Positions 22,320 to 41,707 of a stretch of DNA of 41,707 nt are shown in pieces. Both the position numbers and the translations under genes were made by a program. The DNA is from an uncultured delta proteobacterium (GTDB taxonomy: Bacteria > Myxococcota_A > Polyangia > Haliangiales > Haliangiaceae), in NCBI GenBank assembly GCA_900696455.1, contig CAADGB010000255.1, forward strand, positions 1 through 41,707. The letters are read 5' to 3'. Under the pieces are notes generated by a model. It worked only from the letters and a program-made list of their open reading frames with translations. It searched no databases and was not told the DNA's origin. How positions within the stretch are numbered: the first letter of the stretch is position 1; each line of letters starts with the position of its first letter.

Positions 22320-23705
22320 ATGCAGCGTAGCCTATCCCTGACGTTGTGGGGGGTCGCGGCGGCCGGGTGCCTTGCGGCCTGCGGCGGCGACGACGCCCGC
22401 CTGCCCCCGCTGTTCGAGCCCAGGCCCGAGTGCATGGGCGAGTCGATCGTGCCCCTGGCGGGCCAGCACCAGCAGTTGATCTCGTTCCTCGAGATCGGCG
22501 ACCTGGCCGACGGCTTCGACCTCGACGGCGACGGCCGGCCCGACAACAAGCTGGCCGGGGTCGGCGCGCTGGCGCGCGACGCCATCCAGGAGTCGCTCGA
22601 CGAGTACGACATCCTCATCCCGCTCGAGATGTTCGACTTCGCGACGCCGGCCGCCGATAGCTGCGTCAAGTTCGCCCTCTACCTCGGCGTCTACAAGCTG
22701 GACCTCGACGAGGACGGCGAGGAGACCGCGGTCGACGGCGGCGACTGCAACGACCACGATCCCAACATCCCCGGGGTCGAGATCCCCGGCAACGGCAAGG
22801 ACGACGACTGCGACGGCCTCGCCGACGAGGCCGAGGACGGCACGCCGTCCACCGACACCGCCGACGCCGACCAGGACGGCCAGACCATCGCCGACGGCGA
22901 CTGCGACGACACCAACCCCATGGTCAAGCGCGGCATGGCCGAGATCTGCGGCGACGGCCTCGACAACGACTGCGACGGCGTCGCCGATCGCACGACCAAC
23001 GAGCTGGGCGTGGTGACGGCGTGCAACCCCTACGACGCCACCCCGGACACGATCTACATGGATCCGCGCGGGCTGGACAGCCAGGGCCGGCCGCTCATCG
23101 CCTTCACCTCGGGGGAGGTGACGTCGACCCCGAACGGGCTCCAGCTCACCGCCGGTCCTTCGCTGTTCCAGGTCAGCGTCCCGGTCACCGATGGCATCGA
23201 GCTCACCCTCAAGATCACCGGCACCCAGGTCGAGGCCGACGTCGTCATGGTGGACGGCCGGGTGGCGGCGATGAACGGGCGTCTGGGCGGCGTCATCGAC
23301 GCCGTCACCGCCGACACGATCCGCGGGCTCGACGTCCCGGAGATCAGCCTGACCCCGGAGAACTCGCTGCTCGACGCCGTGTTCGCCAACGTCCTGGGGC
23401 CGCTGCTCGCGCTGCCGGCGCTGCCCCCGGGGCACCCCCACGCCGGTTGCCGGACGCCCGACATCGACGTCGATCGCGACGGCCTCGAGGCCTTCTGCGA
23501 CAAGAACCTCGACGGCGATCCCATGACGCAGCAGGTCGACACCTGCATCGACGGCGACGGCACGGTGATCGAGGACCGGGTCGTGAACGGCGTGCTGGTC
23601 CAGTGCACCGAGGCCGTGGACAGCGCCGGCCGCAAGCGCTTCGTCGACGGCATCTCGGTCGAGCTCAACTTCGCGACCGCGCCGGCCAACCTGGTCCAGC
23701 CGTAA
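22320..23705 (+). CDS. Lipoprotein with MopE-like Asp-rich metal-binding repeats
   Basis: 461-residue lipoprotein (lipobox LAAC, C21). It has two copies of the MopE-type putative metal-binding motif. Copy one, at about 137-178, contains DLDEDG, GGDCNDHDPNI and DDDCDGLADE. Copy two, at about 181-222, contains DADQDG, DGDCDDTNPMV, EICGDGLDNDCDGVAD. A calcium-binding-like DLDGDGRPD lies near residue 60. The C-terminal half is beta-rich and ends with DIDVDRDGLEAFCD plus two further Cys. MopE repeats are common in surface proteins of Myxococcota; copper or calcium binding is inferred from the motif only. It is preceded by a good promoter and ribosome-binding site. Confidence 0.82.
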   Translation: MQRSLSLTLWGVAAAGCLAACGGDDARLPPLFEPRPECMGESIVPLAGQHQQLISFLEIGDLADGFDLDGDGRPDNKLAGVGALARDAIQESLDEYDILIPLEMFDFATPAADSCVKFALYLGVYKLDLDEDGEETAVDGGDCNDHDPNIPGVEIPGNGKDDDCDGLADEAEDGTPSTDTADADQDGQTIADGDCDDTNPMVKRGMAEICGDGLDNDCDGVADRTTNELGVVTACNPYDATPDTIYMDPRGLDSQGRPLIAFTSGEVTSTPNGLQLTAGPSLFQVSVPVTDGIELTLKITGTQVEADVVMVDGRVAAMNGRLGGVIDAVTADTIRGLDVPEISLTPENSLLDAVFANVLGPLLALPALPPGHPHAGCRTPDIDVDRDGLEAFCDKNLDGDPMTQQVDTCIDGDGTVIEDRVVNGVLVQCTEAVDSAGRKRFVDGISVELNFATAPANLVQP

Positions 23706-36957: not shown

Positions 36958-37878
36958 CTAGCGCGGCGGCGCGGCGTAGCCGCGGGCGGCCGGGAAGGGG
37001 TCGGCCTGGTCGCGGCGGTCGAGCTCGGCCGGGGTCCAGCGCGCGCCGCGCTCGGCGAAGATCGCCACGCCGATGACGCCGACGCTGGCGTCGCCGCCGG
37101 TGCGGGCGGCGTAGGAGGCGGCGACCCTGCCGAAGCGGAAGGCGGCGACCGCGGCGTCGGACTGGCGGAAGCCGTCGATGACGAGCTCGTCGCGGGGCTC
37201 GACCAGGTAGCCGCGGCGGGCCGGCGACGCCGGCTTGCCGTCGATGACGTCGAGGCCGTCGACCGAGGTCACGACCTCGAAGCGGGCGCTGGTGGCGTTG
37301 CGGATGACGATGCGGTAGCGGGCGCCGTCGGCGCCGACCACCAGGTTGCGGCCCATCGCCGCGACGCCGGGCAGGAGCTCGCCACTGTCGCCGACCAGCG
37401 CGACGCCGATCGAGCCGTCGCCGACGAAGGTCTCGAGGGGCGCCAGCGCGCCGCCGACGTGGGCGGCGTGGGCGAGCACGCCGTCCCGATCGTTGTAGTG
37501 GATGACCGCGGTCGCCCACGGCGCCGCGCTCGCGCGCTCGAACGGGCGGGTCGTCACCGGCGACCACATCGACTCGCCCCAGGTGGTGCCGAGGCCGGGC
37601 CGCTCGTCGGGCGCGGGCCGCGCGACGTGCTCGGCGGCGAGCTCGCCGCCGGCGCCGGCGCCGGCGGATGACGGCGGGGCGGGCGGCGCCGGCACCGCGG
37701 CGTGGGCGTCGTACGCGGGGCCGCCGCGACCGGGCGCCGGGCCGCCGTGGGAGGCCGACGGCGTGGCGGCGTGGCGCGGCGGCGCGGCCAGGCTGCCGCC
37801 GCAGCCGGCGGCGAGGGTGAGGGCGAGGAGCGGGCGGAGTCGGGAGCGCGGGCGGCGTGGGCGGGGCGGGTGTGCCAT
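36958..37878 (-). CDS. Lipoprotein of unknown function
   Basis: 306 residues. The signal ends in the lipobox LAAGC (C26). A long Pro/Ala/Gly-rich linker runs to about residue 90. A globular domain begins at RPGLGTTWGES and contains SASAAPWATAVIHYNDRDG-like and ARYRIVIRNATSARFEVV segments, suggesting a beta-sandwich. The domain ends with a polar tail. I do not recognise the family. It converges on the tRNA gene and ends 25 bp from it. The 211 bp between its start and the next gene (37879-38089) is GC-rich with no open gene. Confidence 0.65.
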   Translation of the reverse strand: MAHPPRPRRPRSRLRPLLALTLAAGCGGSLAAPPRHAATPSASHGGPAPGRGGPAYDAHAAVPAPPAPPSSAGAGAGGELAAEHVARPAPDERPGLGTTWGESMWSPVTTRPFERASAAPWATAVIHYNDRDGVLAHAAHVGGALAPLETFVGDGSIGVALVGDSGELLPGVAAMGRNLVVGADGARYRIVIRNATSARFEVVTSVDGLDVIDGKPASPARRGYLVEPRDELVIDGFRQSDAAVAAFRFGRVAASYAARTGGDASVGVIGVAIFAERGARWTPAELDRRDQADPFPAARGYAAPPR

Positions 37879-38089: not shown

Positions 38090-38497
38090 TCAGAAGGGCC
38101 ACAGGCTCCACGTGTAGTAGACGCCGGCCAGGAGGAAGCCGCTCAGGGCCCAGGCGGCGAGGAGCGACACCAGGGGCGCCGGCAGCGCGCGGCGGCGGAG
38201 CGTGATCAGCGCGGTCAGGGCGCCGCCGACCGCGGCGCCGCCCAGGCCCCACAGGATCGTGCCGTAGTAGTTGATCGCGAGCTTCTGTGTCGGGCCGTCC
38301 TGCCACCACCACGCGCCGCGGTACGGATCGAGCTGGAGCCGCGTCCAGCCCGACCAGTCGCACGCCGCGTAGGCGATCGTGCCGCCGATCACCGCGGACA
38401 GCGCGATGACGTAGACGCGCTGCCAGGGCGCCGGCGCGCCGGCCACGCCGGCCACGTCGGCCGTGCCGTCAGTCGCCGTGACATCGCGCGCAGCCAT
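38090..38497 (-). CDS. Small three-helix membrane protein
   Basis: 135 residues with predicted helices at about 27-46, 78-99 and 108-130 and an aromatic stretch between (YRGAWWWQDG). The ATG at 38497 lies 29 bases inside the end of the cytochrome gene in another frame, implying translational coupling. It may anchor or serve the cytochrome and barrel proteins encoded just upstream, but no haem or quinone motif is visible. The family is not recognised. Confidence 0.7.
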   Translation of the reverse strand: MAARDVTATDGTADVAGVAGAPAPWQRVYVIALSAVIGGTIAYAACDWSGWTRLQLDPYRGAWWWQDGPTQKLAINYYGTILWGLGGAAVGGALTALITLRRRALPAPLVSLLAAWALSGFLLAGVYYTWSLWPF

Positions 38498-39965
38498 GCC
38501 CGGTCATCTTGAACGCGCGCCGGCCGTCGTGGCAAGGCGCGCAGCTCGCCTTGGCCGGCGCCTCCACGGTGGCGGCGTCGGTCGACGTCGCCACGGAGGG
38601 GTGGCAGGTGACGCAGGCCAGGGGGGCGCCGGCGGCGTCGGTGGCGTGGGCGTCGTGGCGGAAGCGGCGGCGCGTCGACCACGCCGCCGCGGTGCGGAGC
38701 GCGATGCGCGCGCGCTCGAGCCCGACCTCGTGGCAGGCCGCGCACGTCGCCAGCGCGGGCGCCGGCCCGCCGCTCACCTGGTGGCACCCGGCGCCGGCGC
38801 AGGCGGCGTGGCCGCGCGGCGGCCGCAGCTCGCGGCCGGCGGTGGTCAGGGTGTGGCACCGCGCGCAGGCCACGGCGGCGTGGCGGGCGTGGTCCATGCG
38901 CGCGCCCAGCTCCGAGGTCGGCGGCGGCGCGCGATCGGGGTAGAGCCGGCGCCACGGCTCGGTGCTGGCGTGGCAGGCGCCGCAGATCGTCGGCGTCGCC
39001 CGCGTGAAGTCGGCGGCGTGGCAGGCCGCGCAGGCGGCGTGGCCGGCCACCCGCGGCTCGCCGCCGGCGTCGAGGCGGTGGCAACCCTCGCACGCGGCCA
39101 GCGGCAGGCGCGCGGCGTGGCGCTGGTGGGAGAAGCGGTCGGGCGGGCGGACGACCGCCCGGGCCTCGGTGGGCGCGGTGGTGTGGCAGGTGGTGCAGCG
39201 CTCGGTCACGGCGAACGCGGCCTGCCCGTCGTGGCAGCCAGGCGCCGAGCAGCGGTCGACGGTGGGCGTCGGCAGCTCGAGGCCCGCGGTCGCGGCCACC
39301 GCGTCGTGGCAGGTCGCGCAGGCCGCGGCCGGGCCCCGGCCGGCGTGGCGGACGTGGTCGTAGGCGGCGCCGACCGCGAGCGGGCCGCGCTCGAGCCGCG
39401 CCGTGGCGTTGGCGCCGTAGGCCGCGGCGTGGCAGGTCGTGCACGCGGTCATGGCCACCGCGGCGCCGCGGCCGTCGTGGCAGCCGGCGCAGCGGGCGTG
39501 GGGCGCCGGGCGGGGCGTCGGGGGCGCGGCGCCCGGGATCCGGTGGCAGGTCGCGCACGACGCGCTGGCGTGGGCGAGGTGCGAGATCGTGATCGGGTAG
39601 TCGGGATCGAGGCGGTACGGCGGGTAGGCCACGCGCGGGCGCCGCGACGTCAGCTCGGCCGGCGCGTGGCAGGCCTCGCACACGACGCGCTGCGCGGCGG
39701 GCGGGGCCGCGCCCGGGCGCGGCGCCGGTCCGTGGCACGCGCCGAAGCAGGCGGCGTGGCCGGGGCGGCCGATCAAGCCGCCGCCCGGGCCGAGGGTGTG
39801 GCAGGCGGCGCACGGGAGCTCGGGCAGGCCGCCGACCGAGACCCGGCCGGCGTGGGCGACGTGATCGAACCCGCTGGCGGTGGCGCGGGGCTGCGCGGTC
39901 GCGGGCGCGGCGAGCGCGAGCGCCACGGCGACCGCGACCACCACCCGCGCGTCCGGGCCCGGCAT
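38469..39965 (-). CDS. Exported multihaem c-type cytochrome, 18 haem motifs
   Basis: 498 residues with a cleavable signal (about 8-25, APATAQ). I count 15 CxxCH motifs, one CX3CH (CFGACH) and two CX4CH (CSAPGCH, CAGAGCH), giving up to 18 c-type haems. Many single His residues (HVAHAG, HLAHAS, HVRHAG, HQRHAA, HARHAA, HDAHAT) precede the motifs at regular spacing and are probable axial ligands. The repeating H..H...C..CH unit resembles cytochrome c3/MtrA-like chains. It is periplasmic or inserted in an outer-membrane barrel. The start ATG overlaps the barrel gene stop by one base (TGATG). Together they look like a porin-cytochrome conduit. Confidence 0.9.
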   Translation of the reverse strand: MPGPDARVVVAVAVALALAAPATAQPRATASGFDHVAHAGRVSVGGLPELPCAACHTLGPGGGLIGRPGHAACFGACHGPAPRPGAAPPAAQRVVCEACHAPAELTSRRPRVAYPPYRLDPDYPITISHLAHASASCATCHRIPGAAPPTPRPAPHARCAGCHDGRGAAVAMTACTTCHAAAYGANATARLERGPLAVGAAYDHVRHAGRGPAAACATCHDAVAATAGLELPTPTVDRCSAPGCHDGQAAFAVTERCTTCHTTAPTEARAVVRPPDRFSHQRHAARLPLAACEGCHRLDAGGEPRVAGHAACAACHAADFTRATPTICGACHASTEPWRRLYPDRAPPPTSELGARMDHARHAAVACARCHTLTTAGRELRPPRGHAACAGAGCHQVSGGPAPALATCAACHEVGLERARIALRTAAAWSTRRRFRHDAHATDAAGAPLACVTCHPSVATSTDAATVEAPAKASCAPCHDGRRAFKMTGHGCARCHGD

Positions 39966-41707
39966 CAGAACTGGCCCTCGGCGAGGAGGCGCAGCGACTT
40001 GAGCCCGCGGATCTCGGGCGCGACGTCGAGCGCCGACGAGATGTCGTACTCGGTGCGCAGCCGCAGGCGCGCCGTCACCCAGGCGTCGAACGAGATCCGG
40101 CCGCCGCCCCGGACGTCGAGCTCGCCGAGCAGGAGCTCGTCCTCCAGATCGCCGCCGCCGCCGGTCCGGGGATCGGCCACGCCGTCGTCGCGGTAGCGCT
40201 CGGCCCAGCGGGTGCGGCGGACGAAGGCCTCGGCGGCCGCCGAGAACCGGCGCGCGCCGCCGCTGAAGCGGGCGACCACCCCGCCCTCGAGCAGGGTGCG
40301 CTCGCCGACGTGCTGGGGCGGCAGATCGAGGGGCTGGACCTGGTTCTCCACGTCGACGAGGGCCTCCGGAGGGTCGCGGTGGTTGTAGGTGCGGGCCATC
40401 CCCGACACCCCGAGGACGAAGGCGCGGCGGACCCGGACCTCGAGGGCGGTCCCGCCCTCGAGGTAGCCGGCGGCGTGGTAGCTGACCTCGTCGCGATCGA
40501 GGCGGGCGTCGAAGGCGAAGGCCCCGTGGACGAGGACGTCGATGTTGTCGAGGAGCACGGTGCCGGCGCGGGCGCGGGCGGTCGCCCGCGGCAGGCTGGG
40601 GCCGCGGTCGAGGTAGCGGCGCGCGACCCCGGGCTCGTCGGGATCGCGGAAGGCGAAGTCCCAGATCGGGTCGCGGCGGTGGCGGTAGCGGCCGTCGATG
40701 ACCAGCCGGGTCTTCTCGGACACGCGGTAGCGGAGCGTGACGTGCTCCTGGGCCAGCGCGCTGTCGAAGGTGCGGGCGTTGCCGGTGATGACCAGATCCT
40801 TGCGCGCGGCCCAGTCGACGGTGAGGTCGGCGTGGTCGTGCCCCTCGAAGCCGAGCGCGCGCAGGCGCAGCGTGAACGGCAGCTCGCGGCGGCGGAGGTC
40901 GTAGGACAGCTCGAGCCCGCTCACCACGCCGCGCTGGGCGCCGAGGTCGGGATGGGCCGGGTCGGGCTCGTACCAGGCCGGGACCCGGCTGCCGACGTAG
41001 AGCGCGACCGCCAGGCCGCGGGCCCGCCACGACGCCCACAGCCCGTCGAGGTGGGCGATCGCGGGGCCGTAGACGTGCTGGCGCCCGGCTCGCACGACCA
41101 GGGAGGCCAGGGGCCCGCGGGTGAAGAGGCCGTCGGCCTCGGCCCAGCCGGCGCGGACCTGGAGGTCGTCGGTGGTGTCCCACGCCGTCGGCACCGGGGC
41201 GAAGCGCGGCACCGTGGGCACGATCCGGAACCTGGCGGCCAGGTAGGCCGACAGGCCGGGGGTCATGATGCGATCGACGCCGAGGACGGCGTCGCCGAAG
41301 GCGTAGGCGCGCGCCCGGTCGTAGCCGACCCGGGCGCGGTGGGCGTCGTCGGTGGCGGCGCCGGTGCCGAGCTGGTTGCCGGCGAGGGTCAGGCCGCGCG
41401 CCGAGGGCTCGGCACCGTCGATCGCGAACCCGAGCACGAGCTGGGCGCGGATCTCCGGCAGGAGGTCGGTGGGCGCGTCGCCGGCCTGGACCGCCGGCGC
41501 CGCGGCGGCGAAGCGCAGCGGGTCGTCGTCCGGAGGTCGGACGGTGGCGGCGGGCGGGCGGGCGGGCGTCGCCGCGGGCGCGGCGGTGGCCGCCGCCGCC
41601 GGTCGCATGGTGAGGCGGGGCACGAAGGGCAGGCCCCGGGCGCGCAGATCGGGTCGGGCCGCGGCCGATCGCGGGGGCGCCGCGGGGGTGGCGGGCGCGA
41701 CCTCGGC
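39965..41707 (-). CDS. Outer-membrane beta-barrel protein, 5' end beyond window
   Basis: Long alternating polar/hydrophobic strands with many Arg/Tyr, a final phenylalanine (LLAEGQF), and no helical segments indicate an outer-membrane barrel. Strand-like examples are RLVIDGRYRHRR, ALEVRVRRAFVLGVSG, ASLVVRAGRQHVYG and ARLRLRTEYDIS. The frame is open to the window edge. The Ala/Pro-rich stretch before residue 40 from GTG 41623 is no signal peptide, so the start lies beyond 41707. By position and type it is a candidate MtrB-like sheath for the multihaem cytochrome whose gene it overlaps. Sequence similarity to MtrB itself is not obvious. Confidence 0.78.
   Translation of the reverse strand, partial: AEVAPATPAAPPRSAAARPDLRARGLPFVPRLTMRPAAAATAAPAATPARPPAATVRPPDDDPLRFAAAAPAVQAGDAPTDLLPEIRAQLVLGFAIDGAEPSARGLTLAGNQLGTGAATDDAHRARVGYDRARAYAFGDAVLGVDRIMTPGLSAYLAARFRIVPTVPRFAPVPTAWDTTDDLQVRAGWAEADGLFTRGPLASLVVRAGRQHVYGPAIAHLDGLWASWRARGLAVALYVGSRVPAWYEPDPAHPDLGAQRGVVSGLELSYDLRRRELPFTLRLRALGFEGHDHADLTVDWAARKDLVITGNARTFDSALAQEHVTLRYRVSEKTRLVIDGRYRHRRDPIWDFAFRDPDEPGVARRYLDRGPSLPRATARARAGTVLLDNIDVLVHGAFAFDARLDRDEVSYHAAGYLEGGTALEVRVRRAFVLGVSGMARTYNHRDPPEALVDVENQVQPLDLPPQHVGERTLLEGGVVARFSGGARRFSAAAEAFVRRTRWAERYRDDGVADPRTGGGGDLEDELLLGELDVRGGGRISFDAWVTARLRLRTEYDISSALDVAPEIRGLKSLRLLAEGQF

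Follow-up and report, generated by a model that had tools for sequence, protein, structure and literature searches.

The window analysed here spans contig C255 from end to end (41,707 bases) and is part of the draft genome of an uncultured delta proteobacterium (7.98 Mb in 554 contigs, estimated to be 95% complete). Its high-numbered end carries three overlapping genes, for a putative outer-membrane barrel protein, an 18-haem c-type cytochrome and a small membrane protein. With a probability of about 0.76, these were read as the distal half of the genes encoding an outer-membrane electron conduit of the porin-cytochrome type. The same plan, that of MtrAB and the porin-cytochrome complexes, had been proposed in an original prediction made from the window sequence; it was supported by the architecture, the conserved gene order and a 15-haem lipoprotein encoded upstream in relatives, the function being inferred from architecture. 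The evidence comprised gene content, gene overlaps, invariant haem motifs, six c7-type repeats, a relationship of the cytochrome to separate nine-haem genes, lipoprotein signals and a gene order shared across genera. The three genes were located as follows.

39965..41707, (-) strand: putative outer-membrane beta-barrel protein, assigned by sequence features; 580 codons in the window, 5' end missing
38469..39965, (-) strand: 18-haem c-type cytochrome of 498 amino acids, ATG at 39965; assigned by motif count, Pfam, NCBIfam and PDB profile
38090..38497, (-) strand: small membrane protein of 135 amino acids, three predicted helices

Positions and junction sequences agreed with the order and overlaps first described. 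The barrel stop codon and the cytochrome start codon share one base (TGATG), and the 3' end of the cytochrome gene overlaps the start of the membrane-protein gene by 29 bases. The barrel gene lacks a start codon in the window because the contig stops at 41707. The nearest named relative was Myxococcales bacterium TH-Jun18-119 (L030), a metagenome genome, with a barrel identity of 72%.

Gene order in relatives and the missing upstream part

Relatives within the family share the following gene order: a TPR lipoprotein (about 705 amino acids), a methyltransferase-like protein (about 310 amino acids, with weak Pfam matches), a 15-haem cytochrome with a lipobox (identified by eye), the barrel, the 18-haem cytochrome and the three-helix protein. 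A porin gene adjoining the gene of a secreted multihaem cytochrome, which is the general porin-cytochrome architecture, was thus present in the window and in its relatives. The 15-haem gene lay immediately 5' of the barrel gene in 18 of the 18 loci having upstream sequence (four incomplete as called). A look past position 41707 for an outer-surface cytochrome had been suggested, and at that place the relatives encode this 15-haem lipoprotein, a putative surface-type cytochrome. The 18-haem gene was found immediately 3' of the barrel gene at 18 loci, comprising the window and 17 relatives, with exactly 18 haem motifs in 17 loci and at least 17 in the other.

Within the window genome, contig C446 carries the TPR gene and then ends inside the methyltransferase gene, which is consistent with one operon spanning the assembly gap. 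The 15-haem gene of this genome would lie within that gap, which separates C446 from C255 and is put at about 2 kb from the spacing in relatives. Another contig, C358, was first suspected as the continuation of the operon and was ruled out, the upstream part being on C446.

Mean identity was highest for the 15-haem protein (0.57, versus 0.41 for the barrel). Distance-matrix correlations were high for all pairs of operon genes, including the TPR and methyltransferase genes, and were therefore taken to reflect shared ancestry and nothing more specific. Between the 15-haem and methyltransferase genes at L032:13171-13218, a stretch of approximately 30-45 bases was noted that recurs with 84-100% identity on dozens of window-genome contigs; it is possibly an interspersed or tandem repeat.

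A single-sequence search of the class detected the barrel in 25 of 144 genomes, which all belong to one order. When another barrel member was used to query 237 genomes of the phylum, weaker relatives turned up in further families, and tblastn of the barrel against plasmids gave no match. Six distant barrel relatives were collected from other contexts (E 2e-50 to 3e-15 against the family profile), and all six adjoin a homologue of the 15-haem cytochrome. Some of these loci also contain nine-haem genes, very large multihaem proteins, or a protein with FHA, ferredoxin and pyridine-nucleotide oxidoreductase domains. That barrel and multihaem cytochrome stay linked in such varied settings speaks against a chance association. 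Near a paralogous 15-haem/barrel set, two genes (L116:278-4099 and L110:254-4441) encode large proteins with three FHA domains, seven CXXCH-type motifs, and ferredoxin and pyridine-nucleotide oxidoreductase domains; such proteins could link pyridine nucleotide to the conduit.

Repeats and origin of the 18-haem cytochrome

A recount of the cytochrome motifs gave exactly the numbers reported earlier: 15 CX2CH, one CX3CH (residue 73) and two CX4CH (residues 239 and 389). In a six-frame translation of the 41.7-kb window, all 15 CX2CH motifs fell in the cytochrome frame. All 36 motif cysteines and all 18 motif histidines were invariant across 17 homologues, and the motif set is therefore not due to chance. 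The CX3CH of haem 2 was conserved in all 17 homologues, most of which also keep the CX4CH motifs of haems 8 and 14. The protein has a Sec-type signal peptide with predicted cleavage near ATA-Q (judged by eye) and contains 27.7 residues per haem.

Matches were obtained to Pfam Cytochrome_C7 (4e-23, five stretches) and to the NCBIfam c7-type tri-haem domain model nanowire_3heme (8e-16). A profile of the 17 homologues gave PDB 3ov0 as its top match (E 1.2e-23), which is GSU1996, a dodecahaem c7 polymer (PMC10138318). The haem motifs group in threes, forming six tandem c7-type tri-haem repeats, all on the (-) strand.

39660..39875, (-) strand: repeat 1, haems 1-3; contains the conserved CX3CH; distal His 35, 38 and 70
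39423..39593, (-) strand: repeat 2, haems 4-6; distal His 129, 132 and 156
39177..39368, (-) strand: repeat 3, haems 7-9; central CX4CH; distal His 204 and 207 only
38964..39140, (-) strand: repeat 4, haems 10-12; distal His 280, 283 and 309
38724..38903, (-) strand: repeat 5, haems 13-15; central CX4CH; distal His 359, 362 and 386
38472..38669, (-) strand: repeat 6, haems 16-18; distal His 437 and 440; invariant Lys 472

Each repeat is headed by an HxxH pair that was invariant, apart from one histidine of repeat 4 (16 of 17). A third distal histidine was invariant in repeats 1, 2, 4 and 5 and absent from repeats 3 and 6, so that, if c7 cytochromes are a guide, haems 9 and 18 would have a ligand other than this histidine. 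The invariant Lys 472 (window 38550-38552) occupies the position of the third distal histidine in repeat 6. One possible interpretation of this residue is that the terminal haem of repeat 6 is Lys-ligated or otherwise unusual. Like the window cytochrome, GSU1996 strings tandem c7 tri-haem domains on a single chain; it has four domains where six are present here, and one His-Met haem per domain (PMC10138318), whereas four of the six domains here keep the third conserved distal histidine.

Repeats 1-3 and repeats 4-6 could be aligned with each other over almost their full length (hhalign E 7e-35). On contig C4 of another genome (G007), a paralogous barrel gene is followed by two separate, adjacent nine-haem genes (L115:6169-7908). 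One of these preferred the profile of the N-terminal half (1.5e-40, versus 2.3e-35 for the C-terminal half) and the other that of the C-terminal half (3.0e-48, versus 3.8e-33 for the N-terminal half). Because the halves are homologous and also occur as separate genes in this genome, a fusion of two nine-haem units is the best reading of the 18-haem cytochrome. Together, the split and fused 9+9-haem forms would offer a natural example of haem-wire growth by domain duplication and gene fusion.

The barrel protein and comparison with known conduits

The assignment of the 39965-41707 protein as an outer-membrane barrel rests on indirect evidence. Complete homologues are about 550-600 amino acids long, and 17 of 17 end in Phe or Tyr. 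Hydrophobicity alternation was found in 0.302 of windows in the barrel family, compared with 0.121 +/- 0.027 in shuffled sequences, while both cytochrome families, used as a control, remained at shuffle level. By this crude measure the barrel has about two dozen candidate strands. A comparison with the MtrB family, proposed at the outset, was negative: the barrel had no PF11854 (MtrB_PioB), NCBIfam or PDB match, and PF11854 was absent from the whole window genome. Antibody chains appearing in a PDB search with the single barrel sequence (E above 0.2) were set aside as chance.

Several observations weigh against the conduit reading. None of the 17 barrel members had a Pfam or NCBIfam match at E 0.1, and a PDB search with the barrel family profile returned nothing up to E 10. 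AlphaFold models made from two sequences (window and L030) had a predicted local distance difference test (pLDDT) score of 27 for the barrel and 33 for the 18-haem cytochrome, and both were discarded. The 15-haem gene was not found in the window genome's own assembly. Genus g2 has two loci in which the barrel and 15-haem genes occur with no 18-haem gene adjoining them, and the 18-haem part is therefore not indispensable.

Among known systems, the Geobacter porin-cytochrome complex (Pcc) OmbB-OmaB-OmcB is alike in being a one-cluster triad of porin, non-lipidated cytochrome and outer-membrane cytochrome. It differs in haem number (8 + 12, versus 18 + 15 here); OmbB was compared by description only. 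Periplasmic Pcc cytochromes with 5-14 haems have been reported, and Anaeromyxobacter, also of the Myxococcota, has a Pcc cluster without an outer cytochrome (PMC4245776). MtrCAB, MtoAB and PioAB likewise pair a barrel with a multihaem cytochrome, the surface cytochrome being optional; unlike their porins, the barrel here is without the family matches listed above, and the cytochromes are of 18 and 15 haems, with no decahaem MtrA type beside the porin. OetABI of syntrophic sulfate reducers and Geobacter also comprises a periplasmic cytochrome, a barrel and a lipoprotein cytochrome (PMC10553843), but TPR and methyltransferase-like genes accompany the set described here; OetI was compared by description only.

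PCC3 clusters (Sideroxydans, Leptothrix and others) share a porin, two many-haem cytochromes, a cluster membrane protein and few residues per haem (PMC5566968, PMC10734462), their porins being compared with the barrel by description only. Their median haem numbers are 34 and 21, with 21 and 18 in the ES-1 example, and conduits of this type carry 18-35 haems (PMC5566968, PMC10734462); the wires have a median of 26 residues per haem (PMC5566968), to which the 27.7 of the window cytochrome comes close. Haem number alone is therefore not new. The original prediction had held that the set differs from standard ones in haem number and in the three-helix protein, as well as in the atypical motifs. 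The first difference falls away, since 18 haems lie within the PCC3 range, and the second stands: the PCC3 membrane protein has about 300 amino acids, five helices and two HX13H motifs, whereas the protein here has 115-135 amino acids and three helices, with zero histidine in the window copy.

Among the open-access full texts searched, no description of this gene set was found, nor of any outer-membrane conduit in Myxococcota beyond Anaeromyxobacter. A bolder reading, tentative and rather doubtful at present, is that of a separate Myxococcota conduit class of independent origin. Its barrel would be unrelated to MtrB and to the OmbB, ExtB, OetI and PCC3 porins (the latter four compared by description only) and always accompanied by a 15-haem lipoprotein. 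One order would have added a fused 9+9-haem c7 wire, which may be long enough to span the periplasm and could then give a continuous haem path from near the inner membrane to the surface. If the conduit reading holds, a little-studied uncultured branch of the Myxococcota would have its own type of outer-membrane conduit. Conduit searches based on MtrB-type family models would overlook this barrel.

Topology, direction and alternative functions

In the proposed conduit, the barrel would sit in the outer membrane around a multihaem cytochrome, whose haems would thereby form a chain across the membrane. The 15-haem lipoprotein would be anchored at the outer membrane and form either the external or the membrane-crossing portion. 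The 18-haem protein would serve as a periplasmic wire of six c7 domains, giving electrons to the barrel-lipoprotein unit or receiving them from it, and the three-helix protein may be an anchor or assembly factor for this wire at the inner membrane. The location of each cytochrome, the passage of haems through the barrel and electron exchange with the cell exterior are accordingly all predictions.

Two variants are compatible with a conduit. In the first, which was given close to an even chance, the 15-haem lipoprotein would pass through the barrel in the manner of MtrA, leaving the 18-haem protein as an accessory wire or store in the periplasm. The 15-haem and barrel genes always occur together, even where the 18-haem gene is lacking, and the highest conservation in the set is that of the 15-haem protein. 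This topology also fits the statement of Shi et al. 2014 (PMC4245776) that the cytochrome constantly paired with a porin is the periplasmic, membrane-crossing one. It is opposed by the lipid anchor, a usual feature of surface cytochromes (MtrC and OmcB, for example), and by the direct overlap of the 18-haem gene with the barrel gene.

In the second, a plausible variant judged somewhat short of even, electrons flow inward, the donor being Fe(II), Mn(II), minerals or a partner cell, and are not delivered to an acceptor. No component of the set fixes the direction, MtrAB-type conduits have been reported as bidirectional (PMC10734462), and PCC3, the best known many-haem conduit type, is found in iron oxidizers (PMC5566968). 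However, the genome's NapC-type quinol dehydrogenase suits outward flow at least equally well. A look beyond the window end for an inner-membrane quinol oxidase had also been suggested; a NapC/NirT-type quinol dehydrogenase was indeed found in the genome, but elsewhere, beside an MtrC-like decahaem cytochrome.

A storage role, in which the 18-haem protein would hold electrons in the periplasm and the barrel would be an unrelated solute porin sharing the operon by chance, is improbable. A capacitor role is ascribed to GSU1996 (PMC10138318), the closest solved relative of the 18-haem protein, but the barrel was linked to a multihaem gene at every locus with flanking sequence, including distant members with different neighbours, and the conserved gene order included no transporter partner.

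It is very improbable that the multihaem proteins form an oxidoreductase, acting on nitrite for instance, with the barrel serving as the pore for its substrate: in the PDB, the 15-haem profile was weakly similar to NrfA chains and the 18-haem profile to NrfH chains, but this similarity was confined to generic c-haem segments, and the neighbours included no catalytic subunit. Nitrite reductase was dropped as a candidate, as Pfam, NCBIfam and neighbour scans gave neither an NrfA family match nor partner genes. A neighbourhood devoted to nitrite reduction had been named as evidence against a conduit; no nitrite or sulfite reduction genes were present among the scanned window genes, and the cytochrome matched c7/c3 families and not NrfA.

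Accessory genes and other multihaem clusters of the genome

The small membrane protein has hydrophobic stretches at about residues 27-48, 79-100 and 104-130 and gave no match in a Pfam and NCBIfam scan. A three-helix protein gene was found near the cytochrome gene in most relatives. A further conserved gene lies downstream.

36958..37878, (-) strand: conserved downstream protein of 306 amino acids, lipoprotein-type signal

This gene was near the gene set in 14 of 21 compared loci and is associated with it as a candidate member. The remaining scanned window genes were mostly housekeeping and regulatory. A 461-amino-acid protein (window 22320-23705) carries a Cu-binding MopE-type putative metal-binding motif (Pfam PF11617). 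Matches at the DNA level between the region and the rest of its own genome were short (approximately 70-90% identity) and were read as chance similarity of GC-rich DNA.

Outside the window, the genome (G000) encodes proteins with 29, 25, 20, 13, 13, 12 and 10 haems on contigs C37, C483, C124, C69 and C439 (L066-L070), several of which adjoin barrel-like, NapC-type or Fe-S proteins. Contig C37 carries the MtrC-like decahaem protein (Mtrc-MtrF domain, 4.5e-50) and the NapC/NirT protein (5e-11). At L066:4037-8395, NapC/NirT, a 13-haem lipoprotein and the MtrC-like decahaem protein, which has a collagen-like N-terminus, form a candidate second electron-transfer cluster. On C124, a 12-haem cytochrome gene is overlapped by that of a further barrel-like protein. 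On C483 (L067:6306-12560), a 29-haem cytochrome is flanked by a membrane Fe-S protein and by a barrel-like protein of 540 amino acids ending in RVGYRF.

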